64,000 nucleotides of DNA. Source: a virus. The translations under genes and the position numbers were made by a program. Numbering within the stretch: the first letter of the stretch is position 1; each line of letters opens with the position of its first letter. Shown piece by piece: positions 4,758 through 49,947 of the stretch. The stretch is from positions 1 to 64,000 of IMG/VR virus record IMGVR_UViG_3300037065_000037. One strand, 5' to 3'. The notes under the pieces were generated by a model. That model did no database searches, was not told where the DNA came from, and saw only the letters and a program-made list of their open reading frames with translations.

Positions 4758-4774
4758 GAAAGGCGCATCGAACA

Positions 4775-7597: not shown

Positions 7598-7620
7598 CGA
7601 GCAGAAACAAGGAGTGGTAA

Positions 7621-8165: not shown

Positions 8166-8173
8166 CTAACTTT

Positions 8174-8195
8174 TTTCGTAAGGCAAGAGCAACAG
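8174..8195 (+). repeat. 22-bp leader repeat, copy 2
   Basis: Exact copy of 7576-7597 in the 90 bp before the ssDNA-binding gene. Both copies are followed within about 50 bases by a ribosome-binding AAGGAG, so the repeat behaves like a duplicated leader segment. Confidence 0.8.
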
Positions 8196-8256
8196 CTCCC
8201 CAGCCGATAACCGATAACGACGATCAACAGCAAACAGAAATAAGGAGAGCACTTCG

Positions 8257-22459: not shown

Positions 22460-24423
22460 TGTGCGCTCACATTCCAGGTGGTACTTGATCCAGGCACTAT
22501 CGCCGTGCTGGTCGCATTGCACACTTGATAGTTCAAGGTATTTGCTGTCGGATAGGATGTAAAGTACAGACCGGGTGTGCTAGGCGTCCATCCGCTCACT
22601 GCGGAGTAATCCGTGCTCCATGTAAAGCTGAAGGTCATGCTTGTGGTCACGCCGGTCATCGTCGCCGTGCTGTAAGTCGTTCTGGTAGGCAAGCAGCCAC
22701 CTGCCGGAACGCTCGTCGTACCTACTGCAATCATAGTGTGGATGGCAGAACTACTTCCTCCCGAGTATACGGGGATGTTCAGCACGCCTCCAGTGTAGGT
22801 TGCCGGTCCGCTCGTGCCTGTCGTGGATAGCGCGAAAGATGAGGAGCCGCCACTGAACGTTGTCCACGTCCCGCTGAGGCAGCGTGTCAGCGATCCATCA
22901 ACAGCAGGGACCCATTGGCCATTCGTAGAGCATGAACCTGTAGGCGCAGCGGTCGCTGTAGCGAAGACGCTGTACAGCCTCGCACTCCCCAGTCCGTCGT
23001 TGAAGTTTGGTCCATCAAAACTAAGAGTTCCGTCCGCATAGCGTGAAAGTCCTGTGGTGCAATTACTTATACCGTTATCACTATTCTTCGGGCACCACCG
23101 AAACGTGGTCTTATTGAACATCATCCGCTGAAAGGCTGTTACCGCTGCGTTCGGTCCCCACTTCTCTACGGGCATACGAGAATTAGTTCCGAAGATAGTC
23201 TGCGTGTTGGAGTCATCTATCAGGAATTGAAAATCATAGGTGTTGCTCGGGCCACCACCGCCAGCAACATCTGTTCCTACATACATATGCGGCGTATTGT
23301 AGACAGGATAGTAAAGGCCCAACAATAAACTAGAAGAGCTGGGATATACAGTCACCGTGGGGTTATAGGAGCTGTCAAGAAACGTTAATGAAGAGTCGTA
23401 GGCTAAGCCATTGGTCCACGCGTTCCAGAATGGTAGATGACCTGTGTGGTCACCCTCCTGAGTGGCATATGCACGATTTACATACGTCGCAAAAGCGTGC
23501 GCTCCGCTGGCCGTGTTTGCCACCAAATTGTTCGAGGCATACAAATCCGAGCCAAACTCAATCCAACGATCCCAGTACGCGCCACCGGAAGCACCCGAAG
23601 AACTCTTTGCCTGTAGCTCCAACCATGTGTTGACTGCGGCAATTGTTCCCCTTGCGGTATCGCCATCGTATAGGCCAAAAGATGTCGGCAGAATAGCTCC
23701 CTGCACCACCACGCATCCGGCAGCGTGCGCCTGGGTCCACACGGATTTGAAATTTTGCTCCACCGTGTATGCGCTGTTGCTATTCACTGCTATATCTGCT
23801 TGGCCTATTTGCAAAATAAGATAGGTCGGTGTACCTAGAGAACAATTCACCTTGCTCGAAAAGTAGGTGTTGGCATCCGCAAGAGTTGACCCTACTTGCG
23901 AAAGACTCCCGTGACCCTTGATGAAGGGCATGTTTGCAAGCTGATACGCGGCCCAATAGTTCGCCGAATTGATCGTGCCTCCCGTGCCACTTCCAGTGTT
24001 GGTCGAATAGGAAAAGGTGAACTGGGTTGGAGACGTTACCGTAACTTGGAATACACCCTGACCTGTATCATAGGAACTTCGGTTTGTCTGCGGTGAAAAC
24101 CAGCCAGTGAGCCCCAGAACCTTCACCCAATCGCCTGTAGTAAGTCCGTGCGCTGTGGTCGTATTGACCGTGCCAGTCGTTCCGTCAGCCGACCATGCAC
24201 CGGCAGTAATAGACGGTCCGCTCAGTCCTCCAAAATCATCCGTTGTGACCGATGAGCTGAGAATAATATAGGCTGTCGTGGTTGGGTTGTAATGCACCGC
24301 GTCGGCATCCGTGCCGCCTCCTCCGCTCTGGATAATCGTCGGTCCGGTGATCCTGGTCTGTGCCTGGCAAACAGGCAGAAGAATCGATGATAGTACGAAA
24401 ACAATAGCAGCCAGCTTGCGCAT
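22456..24423 (-). CDS. Secreted tail-fibre-like protein with a possible SGNH esterase domain
   Basis: 655 residues. Residues 1-22 form a signal peptide ending QAQ. Residues about 165-340 show features of an SGNH hydrolase: GHGSLSQ, LILQIGQADIAV (a variant of GxND) and GDHTGHL (DxxH), though the canonical Asn is missing. The C-terminal half is beta-rich with Ser/Thr/Gly repeats, as in fibres. Such esterases remove acetyl groups from surface sugars. The enzymatic call is a motif-level guess. Confidence 0.6.
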   Translation of the reverse strand: MRKLAAIVFVLSSILLPVCQAQTRITGPTIIQSGGGGTDADAVHYNPTTTAYIILSSSVTTDDFGGLSGPSITAGAWSADGTTGTVNTTTAHGLTTGDWVKVLGLTGWFSPQTNRSSYDTGQGVFQVTVTSPTQFTFSYSTNTGSGTGGTINSANYWAAYQLANMPFIKGHGSLSQVGSTLADANTYFSSKVNCSLGTPTYLILQIGQADIAVNSNSAYTVEQNFKSVWTQAHAAGCVVVQGAILPTSFGLYDGDTARGTIAAVNTWLELQAKSSSGASGGAYWDRWIEFGSDLYASNNLVANTASGAHAFATYVNRAYATQEGDHTGHLPFWNAWTNGLAYDSSLTFLDSSYNPTVTVYPSSSSLLLGLYYPVYNTPHMYVGTDVAGGGGPSNTYDFQFLIDDSNTQTIFGTNSRMPVEKWGPNAAVTAFQRMMFNKTTFRWCPKNSDNGISNCTTGLSRYADGTLSFDGPNFNDGLGSARLYSVFATATAAPTGSCSTNGQWVPAVDGSLTRCLSGTWTTFSGGSSSFALSTTGTSGPATYTGGVLNIPVYSGGSSSAIHTMIAVGTTSVPAGGCLPTRTTYSTATMTGVTTSMTFSFTWSTDYSAVSGWTPSTPGLYFTSYPTANTLNYQVCNATSTAIVPGSSTTWNVSAQ

Positions 24424-24432: not shown

Positions 24433-25668
24433 CTAATTTCCCGTCACGGTGCAGAACGCTCCCCAGCCGGAATTGTCAATGGCCAGCGAGATAGTTGATA
24501 GTGTCCACGCATAAGTTGCCAAGCCTGACGCATAGTCATTACCAGTGGTGCAGGATGCGCCCGAAGCGCATCTGGACGGCAGGCATGTGACGTTCTGAAT
24601 TGTGTTCGGCAGCGCATACGGTAAAGTGTACGTGTGCGTCACTTGTATATCCGGTGCCGCGTAGAATTGCTCCCAGATAAGCCCGTTCGCGTCTGTCCAA
24701 TAGCAGCCATTCGAGTTGCATGTGCGCGCCGTCGCTGTACCCGCAACGATTGCCGTTATTCTGCCGTAGATATCCACGGTGATTGAAGACGGGTAGGCAT
24801 AGGTTCCTGCTGTGACGCCACTGGTTGCTGCTCCCAAAGTAAAGGTTCCGCTTGAGGTGACCGGAGAGCCGCTGACCGTCAAGGGTGATCCTGCCGCCAC
24901 CGTTACTGCAACGCTGGTGACGGTACCGTTTCCCGTGCCGCATGGAATACCGCTACCGCTTACTACGCCGCCGGCGACAGACAGACAACCGGATTTTCCG
25001 CCAAGGATACTATCCGCCGTGGTCTGTGGCGTGGAGTCGTCCAAGATCCACGAAGCGGTAAGCGCCTCTTGCGGTCCGATGGTAACGGTGAAGCTCTGGG
25101 GGCACCCGTCTATGCACAGGCCGACAGCAGGATCGTAAGTTAACGTGGCGTATCCGGCGAACTCGCCGTACGAATTAACCTGGACGTCGGTATTGCTGCC
25201 ACCGGGGGTGCCGCTGCCACCGCCCCCACTGCCTTTGCAAGGATCGGTTGGAACTGCTGCGGTAACTTCAGCCGAGATGTCCTCGGTTCCGCCGCCGCCA
25301 GTGACCGGAATCGCGACCAGAAAGCCATTATTGGTTGCCCCAGCGGGACAGGCCACAGTGAAGGCAAAAGTCCAAGTTGAGGGTGATGGGCAGATCTGCG
25401 CAGTGTCAGCGAGCAAGATTGAGAAATGTCCGTTAGAGTCCAGCCGACCGTTTACCGTGGTCTGGAAGGTAGACACGCAGCCAAGCAGTCCGAGTTGAAC
25501 CGAAGAGGAAAGATTGGTCCAGGAGGCGCCAAAGGTTCCATTGGCCAAAGCTGAAACCGTGGCCGTAGTCTGGACGTAGCCAGAGGGGATCTGCGCCGAC
25601 AGAGAGCAAGGGACAGAAGCGCCAGCGAGCGCGAGCAACGCCACCACGCGTTTGACAGAATTTTTCAC
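24433..25668 (-). CDS. Secreted tail-fibre-like protein
   Basis: 411 residues from GTG 25668, preceded by AAGGAGGAATCCA. It starts with a signal peptide (KRVVALLALAGASVPCSLSA). GNGTVTSVAVTVAAGSPLTV and the following VSGSPVTSSGTFTL form the repeat typical of phage tail fibres, and a Cys-rich C-terminal tip follows. The N-terminal part shares its pattern with the adhesin gene at 45671. Likely one of several receptor-binding proteins. Confidence 0.7.
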   Translation of the reverse strand: MKNSVKRVVALLALAGASVPCSLSAQIPSGYVQTTATVSALANGTFGASWTNLSSSVQLGLLGCVSTFQTTVNGRLDSNGHFSILLADTAQICPSPSTWTFAFTVACPAGATNNGFLVAIPVTGGGGTEDISAEVTAAVPTDPCKGSGGGGSGTPGGSNTDVQVNSYGEFAGYATLTYDPAVGLCIDGCPQSFTVTIGPQEALTASWILDDSTPQTTADSILGGKSGCLSVAGGVVSGSGIPCGTGNGTVTSVAVTVAAGSPLTVSGSPVTSSGTFTLGAATSGVTAGTYAYPSSITVDIYGRITAIVAGTATARTCNSNGCYWTDANGLIWEQFYAAPDIQVTHTYTLPYALPNTIQNVTCLPSRCASGASCTTGNDYASGLATYAWTLSTISLAIDNSGWGAFCTVTGN

Positions 25669-30980: not shown

Positions 30981-31451
30981 CTACTGACCCGTGACAGTAA
31001 TCGTGTCCTGGCTGCTGTCTTTGCGCGACATCAACTGGCCAGCTTCGGAGAAAATCTCATTTTCTGCTTCCTCAACAGTAGTAGCTGAAGTTGGAAAAAT
31101 CATTGTCATCTCGACCGCGCTACGAGTCAGGAACAATTGCTTCCGGCCAGCACAGCCAGGGATAACGCTGTATCCAGACAGTTCAAGCGTTTTATCACCG
31201 ACCACAACCGCGCAGTCGCCGTGTACGATCAATGTAGTTGCCAGCCTGATCAGCGACCCTATCATCCACTCTCCGGGGATCAGCCGAATCGTCCTTGCGT
31301 ACATTCCACCATGGAGAAGATGCTCAGTGGCGACGGGGACTTGTGGCTGAGCCAGGATTAGTTCCTGTGCCTGAGCCAACTTGTCAAGTGTCTCCGGCGA
31401 AGGCGGGGTTAACGCAGCGGTGATCGGAAGCGGAACAGCAAGGGCGCTCAT
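30981..31451 (-). CDS. Cupin-like protein
   Basis: 156 residues from the ATGA overlap at 31451. IRLIPGEWMIGSLIRLATTL, HGDCAVVVGD and the next beta strands resemble a phage cupin-like sugar-binding or enzymatic fold. It stands in a run of small accessory proteins in the structural operon. The fold call is tentative. Confidence 0.5.
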   Translation of the reverse strand: MSALAVPLPITAALTPPSPETLDKLAQAQELILAQPQVPVATEHLLHGGMYARTIRLIPGEWMIGSLIRLATTLIVHGDCAVVVGDKTLELSGYSVIPGCAGRKQLFLTRSAVEMTMIFPTSATTVEEAENEIFSEAGQLMSRKDSSQDTITVTGQ

Positions 31452-31969
31452 GCCGGGTCTCCATTCTCGCTCAGCCATCGCGTGTGCTGTGTGTGGGTCA
31501 AAGTGTACCCCTCGCGCCGGGAGAGCACCTTATCGAAGGCACTGCCGATACGAGACATGCAGGTCAGAGCCACACAACCAGAATCCACTGCATACTGTTC
31601 GGCAGTGGATAGAAGCTTCGCTCCAGCACCGGTGCCTCGATAAGCCGGATCGACAAACAGGGACTCAACAGTGGCGATAAGTTGTCCACTGTGGGGCATG
31701 ACAGCTCGGATAATTGAGATAAAGCCCACAATCAGAGCCGAAGGGTCTTTGCCTAGCAAAAAGTTACCGACATCAGTGTATGAATATGCTGCAAAGCACC
31801 GAAACGCTTTTACCTTTTCCATTGCTTCGTAAGTCTCACGCTGAGGCTCAGCGTCCGGGATCAAGCATTCTTTGGCGTAGGCACGGATCAGAGTATCCGA
31901 GTTCGGAGCGTCAAAAATCGCAGCGACAGGAACGTGAAGAATAATGATTTGGGCCTTGGTGTCTGTCAT
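31448..31969 (-). CDS. GNAT-family acetyltransferase
   Basis: 173 residues. VESLFVDPAYRGTGAGAKLL (about 107) is the acetyl-CoA binding motif A of GNAT enzymes, followed by a helix and LTCMSRIG. The substrate is unknown. It overlaps genes on both sides by four bases, so it belongs to the structural operon, where phage GNAT-like proteins sometimes occur. Confidence 0.8.
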   Translation of the reverse strand: MTDTKAQIIILHVPVAAIFDAPNSDTLIRAYAKECLIPDAEPQRETYEAMEKVKAFRCFAAYSYTDVGNFLLGKDPSALIVGFISIIRAVMPHSGQLIATVESLFVDPAYRGTGAGAKLLSTAEQYAVDSGCVALTCMSRIGSAFDKVLSRREGYTLTHTQHTRWLSENGDPA

Positions 31970-32704: not shown

Positions 32705-35401
32705 TTAGCTAATAACCCGCCTCGACATTGCCGACTTCGGACTCACGGCCCAGTCGATCGAATCGATCACCCCCGCCGCGCCGCCATTGTTTCCTGACAC
32801 GTCCAAGTGCGCCCGACTGCCAGAACGAAATATCCTGACTCGTGCCTCGAACAGATTTGATCCGCCCTGGGGAATGATGTCGATGGCTTGAGCGCCAAGT
32901 TGCTGACCGTCCAGCCAAAGTGCAGCGATAATTGATTTGGCCATGGCCGTTGACCCATAGCCTGTGATCGTAGCCTGCTCATAAAACATCTTCTGCGTAC
33001 CACCTTCGCCGAAGAGATCAGGCGAACGGAAGGACCACTGGACGGCGGCCTGAGCGTTATCGCCCTGGTTCCAGTTCAAGTCCCCTGCTTGAATGCGATG
33101 AACTGCGCCATCGACCTTCCCGGCCAGCACAAGCGGATACCCCTCTCCTGCAGCAATGGTTGAAAGGGTGGTGATTGCCCAAGGCAAATCTAGTATTGCC
33201 CAGGACTTCATTACCAGATCGTAGCAGAATAAGCGGGTCAGCAGACCTGATCCAGCCACGCCGCCCACCCCCGGCGCCCCGGCCAGGGGCATTGCGCACA
33301 TGTACATCGGCGGAGTGATCGTTTGCGCAGATTGAGAAAGATACAGGTAACTGGGGTCGACGGGGGTTATGTCTGCCTCAGAGTCCACCCCGCCGAACAT
33401 ATATGGCCGGATGTCTTCTGAGATTAGCCGATCGTTGATCCCGTCAAACACTGCGAACCCAAGATGGCTGTACCGGACAATGCCAAATCCTGGCAGAAAT
33501 TGAATCGAGCGCGAGGCAATGCAGCCAAGATTGGTCTGTGCAGGCTGAATCTCATACGAGGTAGATCCGAACACACCAATAAACTGGTACGTAGTGAATT
33601 CCTTAAAAATACAAAGCGATCCGGTAGGCGAGATACCCAGGGCAGCGATTGTGAAAGGCTGAATCCCGGTGATCTGAGTTCCGTCGCTTCTTCCGATGAA
33701 GGCCACGTTAGTCGGATTCCACGAGTTTGCATTGTTCGATTCCGACATTTTCAGGCAGCTTGGGCCGTCGATGCCCGCAGTCAACGCTGCGGTACTGACC
33801 GCCGCCGTCCAGGTTACTCCACCATCGGTTGTAGTCCCGCCATCAGTGAAATTCCACGCCGGAGTTGTGCTGCCGGAAGTCCCGCCGACCGACGCCGTGA
33901 ATATCCAGTAGCCTTGCAGATCAGAAGCAACATTCGCCGTGGTGCAAGTCCACGTCACTCCGCCATCGGTTGTAGTTTCCCCGACTGTGTAATGCCACGA
34001 CGGAGTCGAAGTCCCCGAGGTTCCGGCAGTAGTCACGGTAAACACATAAGACGTTGCGCTGCCACTATTTATGACAATAATCGTCTCGCCCAACGTGTAG
34101 GCTGTTGACTTTATCCAGCTTCCGTACTCCTCCACAGAGATCTGATCGCCAGGGACGTAGTCTGTGCTCTCCACCCAGGAGTCATACTCAGTTGAGATCG
34201 GCCAAGTATTCGCAAGCCAGAGCGAGCCAGCATAAGTGATAGCATGCGCCGCACCGATGGGCGCAATAGAGGCGATAATCGGCCCTTGACTGGTCCAGAT
34301 CACAGACCCGTCAGTGGTTTTCGTCCCTTTGGCAAAGTTCCAAGATGGCTCGGAAGATCCAGAAACCCCGCCCTGAGTTGCAGTGAAATAATAGTTGGTC
34401 TTTCCGTTGGCCGCGGTGAGTTGATCGTCTGTAGTCCAGCTTACCGAAGCCTCCCAAGACGGGTATGAGTCTTGAAAGGTGTTGGTGAGCGCCGTGACTG
34501 CGCCGGTGGTTCCCTGTGCCGGAGCGTAGGACCTTGGCGCGTAGCCGTTGCCAAGAATCAGGATGGACTGACCGGCAAACTGCATGATTTGTGGCAGCGG
34601 GCCTGCAAGGCCAGCAATGCCCCCATAAGGGGAGAAGCTCGGTATGCTGGGGGTGGCGTTAAAACCGGCAGTTCCCGGCGCAAGCGTGGCGGGTTGCGGC
34701 GGCGTGAAAGGAAAGACCCCCGCGGTGACTTGCCCAAAGGTTATTTGCGGGGGCAAAGAAACTAGAGCGGTGTTCACATAAAGAAGAAGCTCGTAAGTGT
34801 TGTTGAACGTTGGCGCGGGACTAACGGCGCCGGTAGTGGGCAGCACGCCCGTGTAGGTAAACGCTGTGCTGGTCGAAGTTCCAAGAGGAATGTAGCCCCT
34901 CCATAGTCCTTCACGAACAATTAGATACACGGTGTATCCGGTTGCCCCAGTAACCGCTGTCCAGGTGAAATTTACTGCATTAAATGTGCCAAATTGACCC
35001 ACTGTCAATGTGTACGCAGAATTTTTCGCATTGGTGTGCGTAGCACCCACATTTGCCGCAACAGCAAAAGTGTACGAGCCTGCTGGATTGTCCGTTCCGT
35101 GCACAATTGATGAAACGGTGAAGTCCGTCACGTCGGCCAGTTGCGGTGTGGAATCATAGGCCAGCGCTTCGTAGTAAGGGAATTGACCCGGCTGCAAATT
35201 TGCAAACGATCCCAACGCAGCGATCAAGGACGAGGGAATGGCCGTAGAAATAGCGGTGGAGCCATCCGCAATCTGGAGTGAGCCTCGCTGAGTGAACAAC
35301 AGGTTCGAGAGGCGAGTGATCGCACCAGAGGCTTGAGAAAGCGCGCCTGTCGAGGCCACGAGCTTGGCCCACTTCTTTTGGCTGACAATTTTCGCGCTCA
35401 T
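32705..35401 (-). CDS. Tail nozzle/hub protein with inserted repeat domains
   Basis: 898 residues. The N-terminus and the last 350 residues have the beta-propeller-like repeats (YSHLGFAVFDGINDRLISED, FCYDLVMKSWAILDL) seen in podovirus nozzle/DNA-stabilising proteins such as T7 gp12 or P22 gp10. Residues about 305-535 hold three to four repeats ending GTSGSxxPxW...DGGVTWT, which look like small carbohydrate-binding modules inserted in the hub. It would close the tail channel and stand beside the adaptor encoded upstream. Assignment rests on pattern and position. Confidence 0.6.
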   Translation of the reverse strand: MSAKIVSQKKWAKLVASTGALSQASGAITRLSNLLFTQRGSLQIADGSTAISTAIPSSLIAALGSFANLQPGQFPYYEALAYDSTPQLADVTDFTVSSIVHGTDNPAGSYTFAVAANVGATHTNAKNSAYTLTVGQFGTFNAVNFTWTAVTGATGYTVYLIVREGLWRGYIPLGTSTSTAFTYTGVLPTTGAVSPAPTFNNTYELLLYVNTALVSLPPQITFGQVTAGVFPFTPPQPATLAPGTAGFNATPSIPSFSPYGGIAGLAGPLPQIMQFAGQSILILGNGYAPRSYAPAQGTTGAVTALTNTFQDSYPSWEASVSWTTDDQLTAANGKTNYYFTATQGGVSGSSEPSWNFAKGTKTTDGSVIWTSQGPIIASIAPIGAAHAITYAGSLWLANTWPISTEYDSWVESTDYVPGDQISVEEYGSWIKSTAYTLGETIIVINSGSATSYVFTVTTAGTSGTSTPSWHYTVGETTTDGGVTWTCTTANVASDLQGYWIFTASVGGTSGSTTPAWNFTDGGTTTDGGVTWTAAVSTAALTAGIDGPSCLKMSESNNANSWNPTNVAFIGRSDGTQITGIQPFTIAALGISPTGSLCIFKEFTTYQFIGVFGSTSYEIQPAQTNLGCIASRSIQFLPGFGIVRYSHLGFAVFDGINDRLISEDIRPYMFGGVDSEADITPVDPSYLYLSQSAQTITPPMYMCAMPLAGAPGVGGVAGSGLLTRLFCYDLVMKSWAILDLPWAITTLSTIAAGEGYPLVLAGKVDGAVHRIQAGDLNWNQGDNAQAAVQWSFRSPDLFGEGGTQKMFYEQATITGYGSTAMAKSIIAALWLDGQQLGAQAIDIIPQGGSNLFEARVRIFRSGSRAHLDVSGNNGGAAGVIDSIDWAVSPKSAMSRRVIS

Positions 35402-35518: not shown

Positions 35519-36799
35519 TTACGGCAAAATCACACCCCCAAAATACCCTCCGAGCCCCATGCACACCTCCGGGCCTTGACTTCCACCTACCTGCACCTGC
35601 CGCGGAGACATCACCTCACGATTTCCTCTGATGCTGCTGCATTTTGCCTCGAACTGCTTCAACAGCGCCTGTGCGCCTTCAGCGTCTTGTTCAGCCTGCT
35701 TAAACCGGGCAGAGAGATAATCTCTCAGGGCATCAATCCACGCCGGCGGCAACTGAAGCTGGTTGGCCGATTGACCTCGCAAATAGTGCAACGGGTACCG
35801 GATACCAGAGAAGTATATGTTGGCCTCCATGACAGACGTACCGGACGGCCACGCTTGAGCGCTGGTCCCGCCCATTCCTCTGGTGACGGGCGAAAGCGAG
35901 TTGGAGACATTGCCGGAGTAGTAAATGATTTCTGAAGCAGACGGATCAGCCGGGTACGGCCCAATCAGCGCCAACCCAAACCCCAAGACCCAGCCAGAGG
36001 AACCCGGTGTGTACGGGATCACGGTCGCCGTAGCAGACAGCGCTCCGTTCAACACACCGTTTCCTGAAGTCCGGCTCGACTGCGGGTACAGCTCAACCTG
36101 TTGCACCACGGAATCTTGATTGAGAACCGTCGTACCGGAGATTCCTCTGACGTTGCTACGACGGAAGATGTCCGACTTGCTGCCCATGGTGATGGGATAC
36201 CCGTCGTAAAAGCCAGACGTGAGCTTGCGCCAATTCGATACCACTTGGTACTGTGCCTGGCCAGCAGTGGACGGGATTCCGGTTACGTCACGGATGCCCT
36301 CGGCCAAAGCAGTAGCCGCATCCAGCCCTTCATTGATCCATCTGTAGAGCGCCGCGCACGACAGCGCTGTCCCATCTGTGTCCGGCAGCCAAGCAGATGA
36401 GCGTGTCGGCGGGAATCCCTGCGCAATCCCTGTCGAGGAAAGAGTGAACGGGATCGAGAACGCACCGACGCCACCGGCGGGGATCGCGTACGGGAAATAG
36501 CGATCCTCTTGGCCTGCCCCTGCGAGAGTGAAATAGACGCGAAGAGCTGTGGCCGCGAACGAGCACGATCCAGCGACCGTGAAAGTTGAGCCAATCGCGC
36601 CATTCGTGACAACAGTCTCAGTCGACGCAGGAGACTCGCCCCAGGGGGTAAGCTGGGTGACGACAAACCAGAGAGAAGTTGCGCCTGTCGGAGAAGGCGT
36701 GACCGTGACAGAAGACGGCGCGGGGAGGGACGACGGCGGGTCCGCTGCTTGCTCCCGCAGTGCCATCAGCACATCCCCTACCAGTGACCATTGCGGCAT
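35519..36799 (-). CDS. Head-tail adaptor/connector protein
   Basis: 426 residues. LYRWINEGLDAATALAEGIR and TAGQAQYQVVSNWRKLTSGF, then a C-terminal helix pair (RDYLSARFKQAEQDAEGAQA), match the layout of podovirus gp11/gp4-type adaptors that sit between portal and nozzle. An N-terminal Ig-like part (TSLWFVVTQLTPWGESPAS) precedes it. Position upstream of the hub gene supports the role. Confidence 0.6.
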   Translation of the reverse strand: MPQWSLVGDVLMALREQAADPPSSLPAPSSVTVTPSPTGATSLWFVVTQLTPWGESPASTETVVTNGAIGSTFTVAGSCSFAATALRVYFTLAGAGQEDRYFPYAIPAGGVGAFSIPFTLSSTGIAQGFPPTRSSAWLPDTDGTALSCAALYRWINEGLDAATALAEGIRDVTGIPSTAGQAQYQVVSNWRKLTSGFYDGYPITMGSKSDIFRRSNVRGISGTTVLNQDSVVQQVELYPQSSRTSGNGVLNGALSATATVIPYTPGSSGWVLGFGLALIGPYPADPSASEIIYYSGNVSNSLSPVTRGMGGTSAQAWPSGTSVMEANIYFSGIRYPLHYLRGQSANQLQLPPAWIDALRDYLSARFKQAEQDAEGAQALLKQFEAKCSSIRGNREVMSPRQVQVGGSQGPEVCMGLGGYFGGVILP

Positions 36800-36915: not shown

Positions 36916-37356
36916 CTAATTCAAACTTACTTCCCAATCCACAGTTGCCGTCTGCGTCCCACCCAGGGTTACCACGGCGCTCAGGCTCGTGATCCCAAGA
37001 TCGGTGATAAACGGGAGGGTATAGTCCATCACAGTGCCAGCCACAGTTGGGGGAATCTGCCCGACCACAACTGTGCTCGTGCCGTCAGTAGCTGTGAAAT
37101 TCACGGCCACCGTAGTGTCCGATCCACCCAACCCTGACGCGCGCAAGTGCAACTTGCCCCGGCACGGCGCGGGTTCACCACTGGTGTTGAACGGCTGAAA
37201 CCCATTGCTGGCCGTAGCCGCGGGCGTTGTGGACGTGGCCGCAATGACCAGAGTAGCGCTGGCCGCAGCAACGGCCTGCGAAACGCACCCATAAAAAGAG
37301 GCGCAAGCATAACTCGGCATGGTCTGCGTAAGCGGTTTGGTGAATGGTAACGCCAT
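36916..37356 (-). CDS. Decoration-type virion protein, paralogue 3
   Basis: 146 residues. It shares the anchor MALPFTKPLTQTMPSYACAS and the C-terminal DYTLPFITDLGITSLSAVV ... VDWEVSLN with the two genes upstream. The core is beta-rich. Three tandem paralogues right after the major capsid gene suggest head decoration or fibre proteins. GAGGAA precedes the ATG. Confidence 0.65.
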   Translation of the reverse strand: MALPFTKPLTQTMPSYACASFYGCVSQAVAAASATLVIAATSTTPAATASNGFQPFNTSGEPAPCRGKLHLRASGLGGSDTTVAVNFTATDGTSTVVVGQIPPTVAGTVMDYTLPFITDLGITSLSAVVTLGGTQTATVDWEVSLN

Positions 37357-37390: not shown

Positions 37391-37828
37391 CTAGTTCTGC
37401 AACCCGACTTCCCAATCCACAGACGCGGTGTACGTCGACCCGCCCAAGGTTACCGCGGCAGAGATCGACGTGATTGCCAGATCGGTGTTGAACTGGACGA
37501 TTTCGTCGATCGCCGCGCCCGCCGCGCTGGCCGCAAGCTGCCCCACCTGTTCCGTGGTTGTTCCGTCGGTCACCGTAAACACAACCGCCGTGGTTGTACT
37601 CGCGTTCACCGTATTGGTGCGGAACCGGATGAGACCACGGGATGGAGGCGGGCCGCCATTGAGGTTGAACGGGGTACCGCCGGTTGACGGCGTGGTCGTA
37701 GCAGCCGCGATAGTCAAAGTGGTCGGCCCTGCCGTGGTCGTAATGGTCTGCGTCCCCGCGCCGTAAAACGAGGGCGATCCCCAGCCAGGCATTGCTTGCG
37801 AAACAGGATTCAAAAACGGTAGCGACAT
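37391..37828 (-). CDS. Decoration-type virion protein, paralogue 2
   Basis: 145 residues from ATG 37828 (GGGAGAG upstream). MSLPFLNPVSQAMPGWGSPS, TDGTTTEQVGQLAASAAGAA and ASVDWEVGLQN match its neighbours. It is the shortest clear version of the shared domain, without insertions. Likely exposed on the capsid. Confidence 0.65.
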   Translation of the reverse strand: MSLPFLNPVSQAMPGWGSPSFYGAGTQTITTTAGPTTLTIAAATTTPSTGGTPFNLNGGPPPSRGLIRFRTNTVNASTTTAVVFTVTDGTTTEQVGQLAASAAGAAIDEIVQFNTDLAITSISAAVTLGGSTYTASVDWEVGLQN

Positions 37829-37854: not shown

Positions 37855-39225
37855 CTACACTAGCGAAACTTCCCAATCCACAGCGGCGGTGTAAGTCCCC
37901 CCACCAAAATTGATGACGGTATTGACAGCCGTAATGTTGAGATCAGTATTGAACTCGACAGTTTCATCCACCGCCACGCCCGCCGCGACTGGACCAAGAC
38001 TGCCAACTTGTTCCGTGGTGGTCCCGTCTGTAACGGTAAAAGATGCGGCAGTCGTAGTCGATCCACCTACAGCACTCGTCCTCAAATGAATCATGCCGCG
38101 AGACGGAGCCGGACCGCCGTCTTGATTGAAGGCGAGCGAAGAGGGAAGGACCGTTGTACCCGCGGTTGGCGTAATCGAGCCCGACGTGTAAGGATTCGCC
38201 GTAGTGTTGGCCACCACCAGCGTGCCTGTAGTCGCTCCGGCTGCGCTCACTGAGTAGATCGAATAGCTCGCCGCGCCTGCCGCCGCAGTGAATGCAAAAG
38301 CGTACGTTGTCGCCCCTGCCGCGCCGTTCGCCACAGCCACATAAGTAGGCGGGGACACCGTGCCATCGGCGTAATTGGCAATCAGCGCAAACTCGTACTT
38401 GGTCGTACCCGGCGCGCCGACCGTAACCGTAACAGCAGTGGGAGAAGCTTTAGTGGCCGCAGTAATCCCCCAGGCACTCGCGCCTGACCCTGTGGTAGTT
38501 ATGGCTGTCGCTGCCGAAATAGTGACCGCGCCGGTACCCGCAAGCGCGCGGCCATTCAGTACACCGCCACCCAAGGTAACGCTGGCCGCCGCGAGAACGT
38601 TCCCGTTTACGGTCGAGGTCGCAACCGAGGTGAAGGATGTTCCGGCAACGAAGACCACATTCGCGGCCAAGGCGCCGTTAACCAACGTGATAGCCTGCCC
38701 ACTGGCGAGATTGATTGTCGACCCTGCTACGAACACAAATTGCGCAGCAGAATTGCCCTGCGCGTCAAGGATAATCCCCGTCGGCATGGTCAAGCTGGTT
38801 GAGCCAAAATAATTTCCTGCTGTGTAAGTGGCCGCTGTCGAGCCGTTTCCGCCGGTGCTGAGATTGGACAGGCCGGAAAGTGTTGGGGTCAGCCCCTGAT
38901 AGTAACTGATCGCCGCCGTCAAGGCTGTCTTCGCTGCCCCGGCGTTGGTGTTATCAATCACTGCCGGCGCTGTGAAGTTGGCACTGGTCAGGCCGGTAAC
39001 CGATGCCGTCGGAGAGCTGCCAACATTCCCGCCGGTAATGGTCGTGCTGCCAACGTTCGTGACCCCGCTACCAGCCAAGAGGGAGTACGCGGCCGCGCTA
39101 CCCAGTGCCGCCGCAACAGCCGCGCCACTGCCGGAGGCCAAAGTGAATGACCCGGAACCGTAGTTCGAGGGGCTACCGTAAGCAGGCGTGCATTGTGCTA
39201 CCGAATTGTAAAATGGCAGTGCCAT
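37855..39225 (-). CDS. Decoration-type virion protein with inserted DUF3494 ice-binding-like domain
   Basis: 456 residues from ATG 39225 after GAGGAGG. Residues 1-25 (MALPFYNSVAQCTPAYGSPS) and 350-456 (DGTTTEQVGSL ... VDWEVSLV) are the shared decoration domain. Between them, residues about 35-245 read as DUF3494: AAAYSLLAGSGVTNVGSTTI, GLSNL, then PTGIILDAQGNSAAQFVF, ALAANVVFVAGT and NGRALAGTGAVTI. A fibronectin-III-like unit (about 255-345) follows. DUF3494 is the fold of bacterial ice-binding proteins and adhesins. Here it would project from the capsid. Ice binding itself cannot be read from sequence. Confidence 0.8.
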   Translation of the reverse strand: MALPFYNSVAQCTPAYGSPSNYGSGSFTLASGSGAAVAAALGSAAAYSLLAGSGVTNVGSTTITGGNVGSSPTASVTGLTSANFTAPAVIDNTNAGAAKTALTAAISYYQGLTPTLSGLSNLSTGGNGSTAATYTAGNYFGSTSLTMPTGIILDAQGNSAAQFVFVAGSTINLASGQAITLVNGALAANVVFVAGTSFTSVATSTVNGNVLAAASVTLGGGVLNGRALAGTGAVTISAATAITTTGSGASAWGITAATKASPTAVTVTVGAPGTTKYEFALIANYADGTVSPPTYVAVANGAAGATTYAFAFTAAAGAASYSIYSVSAAGATTGTLVVANTTANPYTSGSITPTAGTTVLPSSLAFNQDGGPAPSRGMIHLRTSAVGGSTTTAASFTVTDGTTTEQVGSLGPVAAGVAVDETVEFNTDLNITAVNTVINFGGGTYTAAVDWEVSLV

Positions 39226-39325: not shown

Positions 39326-40312
39326 TTACAGAATGCTCGTAAACGCAACATTCATTCTGGGCGAGATGCAGCTCAGGTTCCAGGTCAAGTACATGCAGCT
39401 CACCAGAACACGCTGGTTGCTTGGCTTCAGGAACGGGTCCACGTTGAAGTAATCCGCCTCGTGAAACACGGGGAAGATGTACTTCGAGTTCAGCAGCATG
39501 GCCTGATTGGCGGTCGCAAAATAATCCGCCACCGTGACCGCGTTGTTGAACAGGAAGTGGTTGCGGAAGCCAACCTGCAAAGCTTCATCATCCTGCATTC
39601 CCTGGCCGAAGCGAATCTGGCCAACGTAGGTGTTCTTGAACGCCGCGTAGCTGGTCCTGTTCATCACGAACAGATCCGGCTCGTCATAGCCCCAAGTGAC
39701 GGACTGATAGCCCGGCTCGGCAATAGTCGAGGACAAGGCCGCCGAGCCGCCGGCAACTGCCGTCGCGGGCAGCCACCAGGCATTGGCCGAACTGGCGCGA
39801 TTGATCCCGGCGATCGTATTGGTCGTCGAGGCCACCCAAGCGTTCAGATCATCCACGTCGAGAGAAGTGTTCTGTGGCGAGGTGTGCCAGAGCGCACGAG
39901 AAAGCTTCTGAAGGAAGCTGCCCGATGCGGTCTGGAACTTGGCCCGGATGATATCCAGATTGTTCGACCCGCCACGGTTGAGAATGATGTCTGTGATCGG
40001 AATCACGACAGGCTGGCGGTACGGCTTCCATTGCTGGTTCGCCGGCTGCACGGAATCGACCACGGAAGTGTCAAGCAACTGGTCGCCATAGTAAGCGCCA
40101 CCAGGAAGCTCTTCCTGGTAGATTTCAGGGAAGATCAACTCCCCGGCGCCGAACCGCTTGCCCTCGCGCGTGAGAGCCCAGAAAACCGGGCTCGGCTTGA
40201 ACACGTTGTCGCCGAGGACAGGAACGATAAACTTCTGGGAGATTGCGTTGACGGTATTGGACAACTGTACCGGCGGTGATGCTAGTCCCAGTCCAACCAC
40301 GCTCTGTGCCAT
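39326..40312 (-). CDS. Major capsid protein
   Basis: 328 residues from ATG 40312 (AGGAGC upstream). NTVNAISQKFIVPVLGDNVF, RFGAGELIFPEIYQEELPGG, DIILNRGGSNNLDIIRAKFQ and DEPDLFVMNRTSYAAFKNTY are a capsid-like order. It lies between the scaffold and the decoration genes, the usual position. HK97-type fold is expected for tailed phages but not proven here. Confidence 0.8.
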   Translation of the reverse strand: MAQSVVGLGLASPPVQLSNTVNAISQKFIVPVLGDNVFKPSPVFWALTREGKRFGAGELIFPEIYQEELPGGAYYGDQLLDTSVVDSVQPANQQWKPYRQPVVIPITDIILNRGGSNNLDIIRAKFQTASGSFLQKLSRALWHTSPQNTSLDVDDLNAWVASTTNTIAGINRASSANAWWLPATAVAGGSAALSSTIAEPGYQSVTWGYDEPDLFVMNRTSYAAFKNTYVGQIRFGQGMQDDEALQVGFRNHFLFNNAVTVADYFATANQAMLLNSKYIFPVFHEADYFNVDPFLKPSNQRVLVSCMYLTWNLSCISPRMNVAFTSIL

Positions 40313-40448: not shown

Positions 40449-41438
40449 CTACTGTACGGCGCCGCCAAAACTTGCCGAGGACATCGCCGACTTCAGAACA
40501 TCCTCGTCAGCCATCGCTTCGGACATCGCTTGCTCGAAGGACTTTACCTCGCGAACCTTGGTTCCCTTCGCGTCGGTGCGCTCGGTGTATGGGTTGAACT
40601 CGCCCTCTTTGGCCACGGTCGTGTGAAGCGGATTGCGTGACTGAGGCGGGGTGAGAGAAGCCAACTTGCTCTTATCCTCGATCTCTTTGGTAAGCTTGAC
40701 CGTTTCCTGTGCCTTCCACTCGTCGCGCTCGGCCTTCTTGCGCGCATCCCATGTCAGCCGGTCCACAGCGTCATTGATCTGAAGGAAGCCGTCCTTGTCT
40801 TTAAGCTGGTGATCGGAGGCATATTTGTAGGCCGTCTCATAATCGACCGTAACGCCTTTGGGAAGGGACTTGGTAGCGTCGGCAAACTGCTCCTGGTACT
40901 GATCATTCAGATAACGGCCAACCGAAGTGTTCAGGACACCCGTCACACGGCCAAGCGCGTCGGTCATGGTCGTCTTCAGGCCGTTGATCTCAGTTGGAAA
41001 CGCATCCAGCTTGGCGCGCAGATCAGTGATGGTCTGATCTCGCTGGGCCAGCTCTGACTTGACCAACTTGACTACTGGGCCGAGGAGCGGATCATTCTCG
41101 TCCAAATTGAACTCTGCAGCCGCGGCGGTGCGGACCTGAGCGGCGGTGGGCTGAGATGGAAGGGATTGAGCCGACTGCGGAGGCGGAACAACATGAACCT
41201 TGCCGTCGCTGTCTTGCACCATCCACCCGGCATTGATCGCTTCTTGAAACTTAGACGTAAAAGCCAATTCAGCTTGGTTAAGATAGCCTTGACGCTCTTC
41301 AATCTGCGCAGTCAAGGCCTTGCGTTCCTCGACAGGAAGAGAACGAATCTCGCCGACCTGCACAGTCGAGCCATCAGGCAGGCTTAGCACCATATCATCA
41401 GCGTATTTCCCGTTGGAAAGAATATCTTTGAGGGCCAT
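40449..41438 (-). CDS. Scaffolding protein
   Basis: 329 residues, charged and helical. TITDLRAKLDAFPTEINGLK is a coiled coil, RKKAERDEWKAQETVKLTKE a basic-acidic helix. Its place just upstream of the capsid gene and the amino-acid composition fit a capsid assembly scaffold. AAAAGGAG precedes the ATG. Confidence 0.7.
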   Translation of the reverse strand: MALKDILSNGKYADDMVLSLPDGSTVQVGEIRSLPVEERKALTAQIEERQGYLNQAELAFTSKFQEAINAGWMVQDSDGKVHVVPPPQSAQSLPSQPTAAQVRTAAAAEFNLDENDPLLGPVVKLVKSELAQRDQTITDLRAKLDAFPTEINGLKTTMTDALGRVTGVLNTSVGRYLNDQYQEQFADATKSLPKGVTVDYETAYKYASDHQLKDKDGFLQINDAVDRLTWDARKKAERDEWKAQETVKLTKEIEDKSKLASLTPPQSRNPLHTTVAKEGEFNPYTERTDAKGTKVREVKSFEQAMSEAMADEDVLKSAMSSASFGGAVQ

Positions 41439-43857: not shown

Positions 43858-45630
43858 TTATTTTCTACCCGACTTCACCTTAGCCAGCGCAGCCAAAGCC
43901 TGACTGGTCTGCTGCTCGTGCGCGATGCCCTCTGGATCAGGATAGCCCAACGTGCGCAGTCCACGTTCCGGCCCGACCACGCCGGACTTCATCAGGTCAG
44001 GTGTGATCTTGCGCACAATGGCCTCCGACAGCGGCCGCACACTTGCCTCGTCCAATGCCACATCAAACGTGCTCGGATCAACCTGTCCGTTCCATGCCGC
44101 AAGAGTGATCCCCTCTGGACCTCGATAAGGTAATGTCGTCGACTGTTGGTACTTGCACATCGTGTCGAAGAAAAACTCGCCTGTCATTTGCGCCGTTTCG
44201 GTGAGCCAACGTCCGGCAAGCTGAAGCAGACCGGAGGACTGCAGCACAGCCGAGTCAAACAAATCGGTCGAAACGTTCCCCGCACCAGGATTACCCTGCC
44301 GCGAAGCAGAGAATCCAAGGCAATCATTCTGAAGAGAAAGCAGCTTCTCAGCCCCTTGCAGCGCACTGTTGCCTATGGCCTGGGGAGTGATCGGCGATGG
44401 AGGCTTGCTACCTGGCTTGATCGTTACCACCTCGCCCGGAAGACCTCCAAAGCCATCAATGTCAATTCCTGTATTCTCTTCGATCACCCACAATGCGTTG
44501 TTCATACGCAGGCCATTCTCGAAGATCTGCGAGTAAAATCTCTGGGCAAGCCTCTGCATATTCTCGGTCATACGAGTAGCTGGAATCCCCCACGGACCGA
44601 ACAGTGGTGGCAGAACGTAATTTGGGAAGATAGGAAACCTGGGCGCGTTCAAATCGCGGCGGCGAGGATATGGGTTGTCTCCATCCTGCAAAATCACACC
44701 CTCGCACTCGACCAGCCAGCGGCCGTTGGGATACTTCAGCCGAACTTCCGGGTCAATCAACGAAGTTGCGGGCACGTCCGCCTTCTCGACCGTCTCACGG
44801 GTGTAATCCCGACAGAACACATGCCTTACCAGCACACGCCACTCGGAGGTTTGCGTGCGGGCGTTCTGGCCGGAGAGCCCAGGCATCGACGACATCGGGC
44901 CGGAGGGCTGATGAATACCATATCCCGAGTCACCTGAAAAAGGCTGGAATCCACCTGAAGTGTGCCGCGGGGCGATCGCACGAGCAGTTCCTGGCCATTT
45001 CAGCCGAACATCTTCCAAGTTCATCCATGTGCCCCAGCCTGCGTAGGCGGGATTCCATGTGTAGTCCGCGCCGGGATCGAAAAACACCAGCCGTGGATCA
45101 ATCGACCTTGCCCACATACCGCCGCGCGCGCGAGAGAGATCAGAATCGAACCCGGCAACAATCCACCCGGCGCCGCAATACCGTGCCGTCAGCCCAGCCA
45201 TAAGCAGATGCAGATTCATTTTGCTGATCTGCCACTGAGCCTGAAGGGAAACCTCACGGGCGAGGTCACGAGCGGAGGTGGGAGCTAAGGAGGAATCCGC
45301 TTGCCGCGCGCCAGAGTAGGAGGGGTCAGATGCACCGGCAGACGGGAACACATACATCCGTGGGGAGAGGTTCGAGACCTGATTCGCCTCCTCCAGCATG
45401 ATCCGCTGCAGCATGGGAATTGACAGAGATGGACGGTAAACGGGACCGGGGGCCATCGCATCTTGAAGATTGTAGAGGTCTTCGGCAGATTTAGCGAAAT
45501 TCTCCCCAAGGGCTTTGTTGCGCGCAGAGTCCGAAGCCTCCACCCACTCCTGTATGTGGCGAGCCCTGGGGTCGATTGACTCCTGCTTCGCGGACTTGCG
45601 CGCCGTTCCGATGAACGTCAAATTCCCCAT
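43858..45630 (-). CDS. Portal protein
   Basis: 590 residues. N-terminal helices (ARHIQEWVEASDSARNKALG), RDLAREVSLQAQWQISKMNL, SIDPRLVFFDPGADYTWNPA, a central stem with NMQRLAQRFYSQIFENGLRM and a Gln/Lys-rich C-terminus follow the portal layout. It lies upstream of scaffold and capsid, as expected, though an endonuclease gene intervenes. Confidence 0.8.
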   Translation of the reverse strand: MGNLTFIGTARKSAKQESIDPRARHIQEWVEASDSARNKALGENFAKSAEDLYNLQDAMAPGPVYRPSLSIPMLQRIMLEEANQVSNLSPRMYVFPSAGASDPSYSGARQADSSLAPTSARDLAREVSLQAQWQISKMNLHLLMAGLTARYCGAGWIVAGFDSDLSRARGGMWARSIDPRLVFFDPGADYTWNPAYAGWGTWMNLEDVRLKWPGTARAIAPRHTSGGFQPFSGDSGYGIHQPSGPMSSMPGLSGQNARTQTSEWRVLVRHVFCRDYTRETVEKADVPATSLIDPEVRLKYPNGRWLVECEGVILQDGDNPYPRRRDLNAPRFPIFPNYVLPPLFGPWGIPATRMTENMQRLAQRFYSQIFENGLRMNNALWVIEENTGIDIDGFGGLPGEVVTIKPGSKPPSPITPQAIGNSALQGAEKLLSLQNDCLGFSASRQGNPGAGNVSTDLFDSAVLQSSGLLQLAGRWLTETAQMTGEFFFDTMCKYQQSTTLPYRGPEGITLAAWNGQVDPSTFDVALDEASVRPLSEAIVRKITPDLMKSGVVGPERGLRTLGYPDPEGIAHEQQTSQALAALAKVKSGRK

Positions 45631-45670: not shown

Positions 45671-47515
45671 CTAGTGCACCCGCCGCGCAGTGATGTTTCC
45701 ATAAGCCGTCACCGTACCCGCCGTGAATGTCGCTTCAGCCACAAGGTAGATGGGAGTTGACACAGACACGTTGACAATCTTGCGTGTGATAGCGAGGCTG
45801 GTGTTGAAGGATGTCGTGGCAATTACCGCCATAACTCCGAAGAACTGCTCTGTACCATCGGTGGGAAGAGCGGCCGTGGCAGTGCCGATTCCGCTCTCCC
45901 AGATGGACGAAACCGAAGCACTTGCAGTGCTCGCCACATAAGTAACGCTACCTGAGACATCCCAATCGCCAGCCGTCAAGGTAATTGATGTGACATTCTT
46001 TGGGGTAGCTGTCGTCAGAGAAACGGCTGAGCCTGATGGGATCAAAGAGGAAAGTGGCTGCCCAACGTATCCCGCCGCCGCTGCCGCTCCGCTTGTCACG
46101 CCAGCAATTCCTACTGTCGATGAAATCGCGCCAAGAAAGTTGGTTGGACCCTGGTTTCCAGGGACCAGTATGCAACCAGTTTCCGTCGTTAAATTGAAAC
46201 CAAAGGAGAGGTACACATTAGAGTTTGGACAGCTTACCCCCGCGCCAGCCGTGGTAATAAGCCCACTGATCGCATGCGCCGTAGTTGGGCTGTTGGCTGT
46301 TGGGAGATATATGTTTGCCGTCCCCGCTACCGTACTCAACAGCCCCCCATTGAGAAGAAGCTGCCCCCCAGCGGTCATATCAACGTTGTACCCGCTGGAT
46401 TTGATCATGTTCGGGTTGTAGAGCGCAATTAAAGCGCCCGGTCCACCCGATGTGATCTTTTGGCTTCCGGTGATTGCCTCTCCGTAAAGCAACGCCGCTG
46501 TCGAGGCCCCTCCAACTGTAAAAATATTGCTGTTCCCGCTCAGATTTGTGCCGAACGCATGGAGATACCCTTGGGCTAAATTCACATTTCCGAGAAATGC
46601 CCCACCATGCTTCTCGCTGCGATCTGTGCCTGCATAGTTGTATGTCACAGCCGCGCCATCGATCAAATCGTAGGAGATAGTCTTGGCAGTGAGGGTAAGG
46701 CCGCCGGTGACCGTCCACGTCGAGTTGTTTCCGTAGACTGTCAGTGGAATGGCTGGAAGAACGGTTGCCACAGAATTGGCATATGAAGCGTTCGGACTGG
46801 TGAATACCGATGCCAATCCTGTGCTTGGAATAACCAATGTTGGGAGGTTTTTATACGGGCGCTCAATCGTTCCGTCTTCAACGTAGCCGTCGGTTCGGTT
46901 CAAGCTCAAGGTGAGATTATGTGTGTCGGTCGCCGGATACACAAAAGCAGTCGTATTGAGCGCAGTCTGATAAGGCTGTGCACCCGCTGATCCCCCGGAC
47001 AGACTACTCGCACCTGATCCACCGCTACCAAAATAAGCCACTCCCGTTTTGTTGTCCTGGTAGTAGAGCGCTGGCGCACCCGCACTGACAGCAGTGGAGT
47101 AATCCCCGGCAGCGCTTACGGTCACCAACGACGAATAGCACTGTTGATATGTGTCAAGCCACGTAAGCGAGGCCGGAGCCGGATAAGCTGGAGCGGAGCA
47201 AATGGCGAACTTCCAGTAAGTTGCAGTCGTGCCCGGAGGAGGCGCGAAGGCCGAGTTTGGGTAGATTGAGACCGCGAGCGAGCCCGTTGAGCTAAGCGAA
47301 CCAGAAAAAGAAGGCGGGATGACCGTGCCACTGGATTGAATCGCCGCGCCAGAGGAGTCCACCAAAGATATTTGGTAGGAACCGTACTCGTAAGGCGCGG
47401 AATTGGCGCCAATGGCGGTCGCGGTTACGGCAACGGGGACCGGCACTTGCGCCGAGGCGAGCGCCACGCACCCGGCCAAGGATATGGCAGCAAAGATCAT
47501 CTTCGACGTAGACAC
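45671..47515 (-). CDS. Secreted adhesin/tail-fibre-like protein
   Basis: 614 residues from GTG 47515, set by AAAAGGAG eight bases upstream. Residues 1-23 are a signal peptide (MIFAAISLAGCVALASAQ). The N-terminal domain (SLVDSSGAAIQSSGTVIPPS, WKFAICSAP) resembles that of the gene at 24433. A beta-helix-like middle and a C-terminal TNF/C1q-like end (LTAGDWDVSGSVTYVAS, FFGVMAVIATTSFNTSLAI) follow. Such tips bind receptors. A signal peptide on this class is unusual. Confidence 0.65.
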   Translation of the reverse strand: MSTSKMIFAAISLAGCVALASAQVPVPVAVTATAIGANSAPYEYGSYQISLVDSSGAAIQSSGTVIPPSFSGSLSSTGSLAVSIYPNSAFAPPPGTTATYWKFAICSAPAYPAPASLTWLDTYQQCYSSLVTVSAAGDYSTAVSAGAPALYYQDNKTGVAYFGSGGSGASSLSGGSAGAQPYQTALNTTAFVYPATDTHNLTLSLNRTDGYVEDGTIERPYKNLPTLVIPSTGLASVFTSPNASYANSVATVLPAIPLTVYGNNSTWTVTGGLTLTAKTISYDLIDGAAVTYNYAGTDRSEKHGGAFLGNVNLAQGYLHAFGTNLSGNSNIFTVGGASTAALLYGEAITGSQKITSGGPGALIALYNPNMIKSSGYNVDMTAGGQLLLNGGLLSTVAGTANIYLPTANSPTTAHAISGLITTAGAGVSCPNSNVYLSFGFNLTTETGCILVPGNQGPTNFLGAISSTVGIAGVTSGAAAAAGYVGQPLSSLIPSGSAVSLTTATPKNVTSITLTAGDWDVSGSVTYVASTASASVSSIWESGIGTATAALPTDGTEQFFGVMAVIATTSFNTSLAITRKIVNVSVSTPIYLVAEATFTAGTVTAYGNITARRVH

Positions 47516-48816: not shown

Positions 48817-49947
48817 GTGGCAAATTCAACAAGAGCCTACTATAACGAGATTGATCCTTTCGCAGCCGCCTGGTTACGAAACCTGATCGCAGCAGAACTG
48901 ATCGCAGATGGAGACGTGGATGAACGAGACATTAGAGACGTGTTCCCTATCGACCTTGCTGGGTACACCCAATGCCATTTCTTCGCCGGAATCGGCGGCT
49001 GGAGCTACGCTCTCCGTCTCGCAAGTTGGCCCAACGATGAGCCCTGCTGGACCGGCTCGTGTCCTTGCCAGCCTTTCAGCGCGGCAGGCCAAGGAGCAGG
49101 GTTTGATGACGAGCGGCACCTATGGCCTGCCTTCTTCCACCTCATCCAGCAGTGCAAGCCTCCAGTCGTCTTTGGAGAGCAAGTTGCCAGCAAGGATGGA
49201 CTCGCGTGGCTCGACCTTGTTCAAACTGACCTGGAAGCGGCGGGCTACTCCGCAGGGGCGGTCGATCTTTGCGCTGCGGGCATCGGGGCTCCGCACATCC
49301 GTCAGCGTCTATTCTGGTGTGCCGACACCTTGCACGCTCAACGGCGGTCGGTCAATGAGCATCGAGAAGATGAATGCGACCGGGAAGACACTGGACGGAC
49401 GGAAGCATACGGCGAGCTTGGAGCATGTTGCCAAGTTTTCGAGCGTGCCAACACCGATGGCCGAAGCACCAGCACAGAACGGGAACAACGAAGCCGGGAA
49501 CACAGACCTCAGCCGAAAGATTGTAGCTCTGGCCTCAGTCCCGACACCAACGTTACACGATTCAGATCGGGGAGGCCAAGCGAAACGCGCGATGGGCGAG
49601 GATCGCCACGGCAGCAACCTTCAGGACTTTGCGTTGCTCAGTTCGACGGCGACTCCCGCCGCCAGGGACTACAAGAGCAACTCATCCTCGGACGAATTTC
49701 AATCGCGGCAATGGAACCACCCGAGAGGGAAGCCTTTGTCCGCGCAGGCTACACTCGCGGATTCTGGGGAGGGTGCGACTGGTGGCATGGTCGTGACGAA
49801 AAGTTCCGGCCAATTGAACCCGGAGTACAGCCGCTGGCTACAGGGATATCCAAGCGCATGGGGAAACTGCGCGGATACGGTAATGCTATTGTCCCGCCGC
49901 TCGCGGCGGAATTCCTGAAATCCTACATGGACTGCTGCCCATCCTGA
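48817..49947 (+). CDS. C5 DNA (cytosine) methyltransferase
   Basis: 376 residues from GTG 48817. Motif I HFFAGIGGWSYAL (about 53), motif IV GSCPCQPFSAAGQG with the catalytic Cys (about 85), motif VI-like VFGEQVASKDG, motif VIII RQRLFWCAD, and motif X GYGNAIVPPLAAEFLKS. Residues about 170-300 form the target-recognition region and are unusually hydrophilic because the same DNA is read in a second frame. It would methylate phage or host DNA, masking restriction sites. It is the only plus-strand gene in the right half. Confidence 0.88.
   Translation: MANSTRAYYNEIDPFAAAWLRNLIAAELIADGDVDERDIRDVFPIDLAGYTQCHFFAGIGGWSYALRLASWPNDEPCWTGSCPCQPFSAAGQGAGFDDERHLWPAFFHLIQQCKPPVVFGEQVASKDGLAWLDLVQTDLEAAGYSAGAVDLCAAGIGAPHIRQRLFWCADTLHAQRRSVNEHREDECDREDTGRTEAYGELGACCQVFERANTDGRSTSTEREQRSREHRPQPKDCSSGLSPDTNVTRFRSGRPSETRDGRGSPRQQPSGLCVAQFDGDSRRQGLQEQLILGRISIAAMEPPEREAFVRAGYTRGFWGGCDWWHGRDEKFRPIEPGVQPLATGISKRMGKLRGYGNAIVPPLAAEFLKSYMDCCPS
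48908..49918 (+). CDS. Long overlapping frame inside the methyltransferase gene
   Basis: 336 residues in another forward frame, fully inside the methyltransferase. It is Ser/Thr/Ala-rich with three repeats of the type S-V-P-T-P (GVPTPC, SVPTPM, SVPTPT, then TATPAARDYKS) and the segment PAQNGNNEAGNTDLSRK. The end LNPEYSRWLQGYPSAWGNCA matches proteins I recall being annotated next to, or over, such methyltransferases in other phages. That recurrence suggests coding in both frames. The start could be 48908 or 48920. Function unknown. Confidence 0.5.
   Translation: METWMNETLETCSLSTLLGTPNAISSPESAAGATLSVSQVGPTMSPAGPARVLASLSARQAKEQGLMTSGTYGLPSSTSSSSASLQSSLESKLPARMDSRGSTLFKLTWKRRATPQGRSIFALRASGLRTSVSVYSGVPTPCTLNGGRSMSIEKMNATGKTLDGRKHTASLEHVAKFSSVPTPMAEAPAQNGNNEAGNTDLSRKIVALASVPTPTLHDSDRGGQAKRAMGEDRHGSNLQDFALLSSTATPAARDYKSNSSSDEFQSRQWNHPRGKPLSAQATLADSGEGATGGMVVTKSSGQLNPEYSRWLQGYPSAWGNCADTVMLLSRRSRRNS

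Follow-up and report, generated by a model that had tools for sequence, protein, structure and literature searches.

A DUF3494 β-solenoid of the ice-binding type grafted into a putative capsid decoration protein of a tailed phage

Introduction

Bacterial ice adhesins, such as MpAFP of Marinomonas primoryensis, attach a particle to ice through an ice-binding domain carried on a surface anchor. Type 1 microbial ice-binding proteins (IBPs) with the DUF3494 fold (PF11999), among them EfcIBP (6eio), AnpIBP (7bwx) and FfIBP (4nu2), are cellular and mostly secreted. The fold also occurs in a eukaryotic giant virus, Hyperionvirus, for which BFVD holds two DUF3494 proteins (A0A3G5A745, E = 5.8e-11); we know of no capsid-graft context for these. 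PF11999 genes in Arctic vOTUs have been reported as possible host-cryoprotection genes (AMGs), and Synechococcus phage S-SKS1 has been named as having ice-binding-like homologues (PMC11515562). Our PF11999 search of S-SKS1 (L265, HQ633071) returned no match, in a run in which no positive control matched.

Phages are known to add accessory adhesive domains of the Ig-like type to head and tail proteins, and a review of decoration proteins describes five folds, the DUF3494 solenoid not among them (PMC7602432). Examples are T4 Hoc, T5 pb10 and N4 gp17, in which the Ig-like domains are variably present between close relatives. Our search of the open-access literature turned up neither an account of a virion protein with a DUF3494 domain nor any report joining DUF3494 with phage. 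Here we analyse a phage gene, P0001, in which a DUF3494 domain is fused to parts of a capsid-adjacent protein family.

Results

The virus record from IMG/VR is 65.5 kb long, and the whole stretch of DNA analysed here (the window) covers 64.0 kb. Its minus strand carries a tailed-phage structural module in the order terminase large subunit (a phrog_2 match), portal-like protein, scaffold-like protein, capsid protein, three decoration-like paralogues, SU10-type adaptor and large nozzle-like protein, the nozzle label being taken from position and weak family matches. L followed by a number denotes a compared locus.

43858..45630, minus strand: portal-like protein; weak SU10_portal match (E = 0.022, below cut-off) and synteny
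40449..41438, minus strand: scaffolding-like protein; no family match, assigned by position and synteny (kept before the capsid gene in L036-L038)
39326..40312, minus strand: major capsid protein; phrog_9953 major head protein (E = 1.9e-22), 26% identity to the Mx9 capsid protein
37855..39225, minus strand: P0001, decoration-like protein of 456 aa with grafted DUF3494 domain; profile match, AlphaFold, ribosome-binding site
39154..39225, minus strand: N-terminal anchor of P0001, residues 1-24; common to the paralogues and L212 (75% identity over 24 aa)
38482..39129, minus strand: DUF3494 (Ice_binding) β-solenoid of P0001, residues ~33-248 (Pfam match 50-240); PF11999, AlphaFold, Foldseek
38140..38451, minus strand: β-sandwich (Fn3-like) unit of P0001, residues ~259-362; L212 homologue, strands of low pLDDT
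37858..38139, minus strand: C-terminal decoration domain of P0001, ending VDWEVSLV; paralogue alignment, family present in 57 of 58 related loci
37391..37828, minus strand: paralogue without DUF3494, 145 aa; paralogue alignment
36916..37356, minus strand: paralogue without DUF3494, 146 aa; paralogue alignment
35519..36799, minus strand: SU10-type adaptor; PF24175 (E = 8.8e-5, just under cut-off)
32705..35401, minus strand: large nozzle-like protein of 898 aa after the adaptor; phrog_20658 (E = 1e-14) and position

P0001 lies directly downstream of the major capsid gene and starts 101 bp past it, at an ATG at 39225 with a strong ribosome-binding site (GAGGAGG) upstream. A 473-aa reading frame that opens at a TTG is a mechanical ORF only. 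The protein is rich in Ala, Gly, Ser and Thr over its whole length, and inspection revealed no signal peptide. The two downstream paralogues consist of the anchor and the C-terminal domain alone, and end in VDWEVGLQN and VDWEVSLN. The alignment thus agrees with a sequence-only reading of this region, which had described three adjacent paralogues after the capsid gene with a common N-terminal anchor and C-terminal domain.

The same reading had assigned about 210 extra residues of P0001, and of P0001 only, to DUF3494. The assignment is not in doubt: PF11999 matches residues 50-240 over profile positions 2-206 of 208 (E = 7.1e-28), scoring 98.1 bits against a curated cut-off of 28.7, and this match is unique within the 65.5-kb record. 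The insertion itself is real, with limits slightly different from those first given (38490-39125), as the domain spans approximately 39129-38482. AlphaFold was run on the domain and the scaffold separately; for the domain, the input alignment combined homologues from viruses and cells. The domain is predicted with a pLDDT of 92-98 across residues ~41-245, except for a value of 81 near residues 121-130. As anticipated, the model is an irregular triangular β-solenoid with a long α-helix (residues 95-110, the DUF3494 helix) alongside the solenoid strands. In a Foldseek search all 31 PDB matches at E ≤ 0.001 were DUF3494 proteins (best TM-score by target, 0.84), nearly all of them described as ice-binding or antifreeze proteins; EfcIBP, AnpIBP, FfIBP and LeIBP were at the top, and the entries matched include 6eio, 7bwy and 4nu2. 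Structural alignment with type 1 IBPs such as EfcIBP, AnpIBP and FfIBP gives 26-34% sequence identity.

The remainder of P0001 is less well defined. The unit following the solenoid is predicted to be all-β at a pLDDT of about 50-67 and has no Pfam match; it is a separate unit, as had been proposed, and has a homologue in L212, but the fibronectin name given to it stands as a likeness only. The model of the C-terminal decoration domain is β-rich (pLDDT 69), and at this level of confidence no solved structure matched the decoration fold with a query-normalised TM-score above 0.5.

We compared 58 virus loci with the same capsid type as the window and at least 700 nt of sequence downstream. Of these, 57 have a decoration homologue behind the capsid gene, 50 of them within 150 bp. 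It is nearly always present as one copy, usually of ~144 aa, directly after the capsid gene, and none of the decoration genes in these 58 loci contains DUF3494. The protein after the capsid gene of Mx9 has no detectable homology to the family. The L212 virus has a capsid protein 95% identical to that of the window. Its second decoration copy (250 aa) shares 44% identity with residues 259-456 of P0001 and 75% with the first 24 residues, and is composed of anchor, Fn3-like unit and C-terminal domain without the solenoid, a natural "empty" version of P0001. It is fair to infer a stepwise build-up from the plain protein to one with the sandwich and then to one with the solenoid. DUF3494 is absent from L212, L036, L186 and L187; in the last two, the B scaffold is present together with its capsid type.

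Close homologues of the P0001 domain were found in 25 further IMG/VR viral contigs. We built a tree from 135 DUF3494 domains; its bootstrap is not fully settled, and some of the other viral rows in it have long branches. The 22 phage rows group as a single clade, with a support of 100/100 and a long stem (0.93). The cellular domains (Actinomycetota, Acidobacteriota, Planctomycetota and others) lie outside this clade. A profile search of genome contigs with the phage profile recovered no cellular relative, and a search of genome contigs with an approximate cellular consensus gave 501 DUF3494 matches. As judged from these searches, the DUF3494 family is common in cells and the phage clade is not. 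Searches of annotated phages by tblastn with P0001 and with the L005 domain gave no matches.

The flanks of the phage-type domains fall into at least six families without BLAST similarity to one another, a count made from pairwise comparisons at 1e-4 that leaves room for distant kinship between families. In L002, L003 and L008 the carrier gene lies one to three genes past the capsid gene, which is of phrog_1357 in L002 and of phrog_9953 in L008. In L017 and L026 the carriers are proteins of 1,290-1,635 aa encoded soon after an SU10 adaptor homologue, and the slot of the 898-aa nozzle-like protein of the window holds DUF3494 in L017, L023 and L026. Of the clade's records searched with PF11999, four contain two DUF3494 copies, and one copy lies within a nozzle-like protein of very great length. 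The graft has a neighbouring paralogue without the domain in the A, B/C and F families; L127 and L123 are independent cases of this arrangement. Among independent contigs with such insertions, domain identity is no more than 79%. In B-type viruses dN/dS is 0.04-0.08 for the domain and 0.08-0.16 for the scaffold; these ratios show a domain kept by purifying selection at the level of that on the scaffold or stronger.

Two loci deserve separate mention. At positions 5293-6792 of L127, whose virus also matches phrog_511 (internal virion protein), there are two adjacent duplicates of 138 and 352 aa with signal-peptide-like starts, of which only the second contains DUF3494; this pair is an independent parallel to the case in the window. 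A 2,561-aa protein in what appears to be the baseplate region of L128 (positions 853-8538) contains a DUF3494 domain that is more distantly related (PF11999, E = 1e-22); the same record holds a second one.

The ice-binding face published for AnpIBP (PMC7277481) was used as the reference for mapping the equivalent surface of P0001. It corresponds to the strands SGVTNV, TSLTMP, STINLA, TSFTSV, ASVTLG and GAVTIS, and column 4 of this face consists of T, T, N, T, T and T, to which loop 6/7 adds another Thr. A Thr ladder runs along the surface of P0001 that corresponds to the ice-binding face of AnpIBP. The face (B-face) is uncharged and its outward positions are mostly Ser, Thr, Ala and Gly. The ladder is equally strong in DUF3494 proteins of soil bacteria, and within the phage clade conservation at the B-face exceeds that of other surface strands by only a small margin.

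Discussion

Overall, P0001 is best explained as an optional decoration protein with a solenoid graft displayed on the particle, an explanation that we consider reasonably probable. Since the carrier is optional and duplicated, and since there are many carriers in both capsid and tail slots, we take P0001 to be a display-type decoration subunit. Judged from its gene context, it is quite probably located in the virion, and the solenoid probably points outward from the particle. P0001 would be a version of the decoration protein in which the solenoid and a β-sandwich spacer have been placed between anchor and C-terminal domain. The conserved parts would position it on the capsid among the two domainless paralogues, probably as a minority subunit, and the solenoid would project outward as an adhesive surface, perhaps for attachment to ice or to something else with an ordered surface. 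In other phages the domain may be displayed by capsid-proximal proteins of unrelated families and by proteins of the tail nozzle region. Display on the head had already been suggested from the sequence of the window, and the recurrent grafts in unrelated virion-module proteins, the domainless paralogues and the strong purifying selection all support such a role.

This arrangement resembles the Ig-like grafts, which are also optional and occur in several unrelated virion-module proteins. P0001, however, carries a β-solenoid rather than an Ig sandwich; the one part that might be a sandwich is the unit next to the solenoid. Compared with the type 1 IBPs, P0001 has the same domain and fold inside a phage structural-module protein, in a separate viral clade. 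An ice-bound P0001 would work in the manner of MpAFP, which has a different adhesin architecture and sits on a cell, not a virus.

The most likely ligand would be ice, or ordered water at an ice surface, bound via the Thr-lined B-face. Such binding would hold particles at ice-water boundaries, protect them during freezing, or both. We put this forward tentatively: ice is a credible candidate for the natural ligand, and the sequence does not single it out, because the ladder is the same in soil bacteria and conservation of the face barely exceeds that of its surroundings. For the same reasons, the abundance of the family in soil bacteria and the ladder common to them, membership of PF11999 does not by itself equal ice binding. 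Somewhat more doubtful is the wider proposition that tailed phages possess a dedicated lineage of antifreeze-type solenoids, mounted on their capsids and tail nozzles as organs of adhesion to ice. With these, virions might hold on at the boundary of ice and water, come through freezing intact and encounter hosts that are concentrated in brine veins or in soil as it thaws.

It is also possible, though we do not favour it, that the displayed solenoid binds a carbohydrate of the host surface or matrix (EPS, cell wall or plant polysaccharide), DUF3494 being a generic adhesin. Streptomyces and further soil bacteria have PF11999 proteins in abundance, the ladder on the ice face fails to tell the two ligands apart, and carbohydrates are what the grafts known from decoration proteins bind (PMC7602432). 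The domain is found in nozzle-like and baseplate-region proteins near host-contact structures as well. On the other hand, an uncharged B-face of Ser, Thr, Ala and Gly is expected for ice or ordered water and would be unusual for a glycan site, and among the solved DUF3494 structures that we found none is described as a glycan binder.

The solenoid could have no ligand of its own and merely lengthen the decoration protein as a structural spacer or scaffold. A repetitive solenoid of low charge next to another spacer-like β-sandwich, in a protein rich in small residues, is what such a role would look like. We regard it as improbable. A specific function is argued for by purifying selection stronger than that on the scaffold and by the reuse of one specific clade across unrelated scaffolds.

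Slightly less probable again is an auxiliary role, in which the gene product would shield the infected host against freezing and form no part of the virion. This is how the PF11999 genes of the Arctic vOTUs, members of the same Pfam family, have been read (PMC11515562), and L121 (positions 5911-6855) encodes a stand-alone DUF3494 protein with a signal-peptide-like start, located between scaffold-like and phrog_9953 capsid genes. A secreted or auxiliary IBP would be expected to stand alone, to carry a signal peptide and to be encoded outside the virion module. P0001 instead shows no such peptide on inspection and is a fusion within a paralogue of a capsid-adjacent family, and its clade recurs in structural gene slots and in nozzle-like proteins of 1,300-1,600 aa.

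An assembly chimera or annotation artefact is very improbable. A single metagenomic record is all that represents the virus, but the junctions are in frame, both flanking parts have an L212 homologue, and insertions of this kind are present in many independent contigs.

Returning to the displayed decoration protein, what appears to be new is the combination of a known domain with a known type of use, the display graft, which we did not find described. The occurrence of an ice-binding fold in viruses, in contrast, was already known from PF11999 in viral contigs (PMC11515562) and from Hyperionvirus; the virion context appears to be the new element. If the proposal is correct, a non-Ig module of the solenoid type would join the display domains of phage particles, and viral PF11999 matches that have so far been counted as host-cryoprotection genes could be virion proteins. 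Adhesion of a virus to ice could be put to a direct test with a single domain that is small and soluble. This domain carries almost no charge, is modular and is tolerated by unrelated scaffolds, properties that also make it technically useful as a module carried on particles and possibly active towards ice.

As to the host, an assignment to Acidobacteriota was rejected, 297 genomes having yielded one distant match for the capsid protein and none for the tail-fibre-like protein; Planctomycetota gave no convincing match.

Some other genes of the window are worth recording. Four tail-fibre-like proteins on the minus strand (45671-47515, 24433-25668, 22456-24423 and 21407-22522), two of them with PHROG tail matches, have starts resembling Sec signal peptides, which is odd for fibres assembled in the cytoplasm; fibre-like genes of L003, L008, L186, L187 and L233-L237 have signal-peptide-like starts likewise. 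A possible acetyltransferase, recognised by eye, is encoded inside the structural module (31448-31969, minus strand) and is kept in L036. On the opposite strand, adjoining the terminase gene region, lies a gene for a C-5 cytosine DNA methylase (48817-49944, plus strand; PF00145, E = 1e-13).
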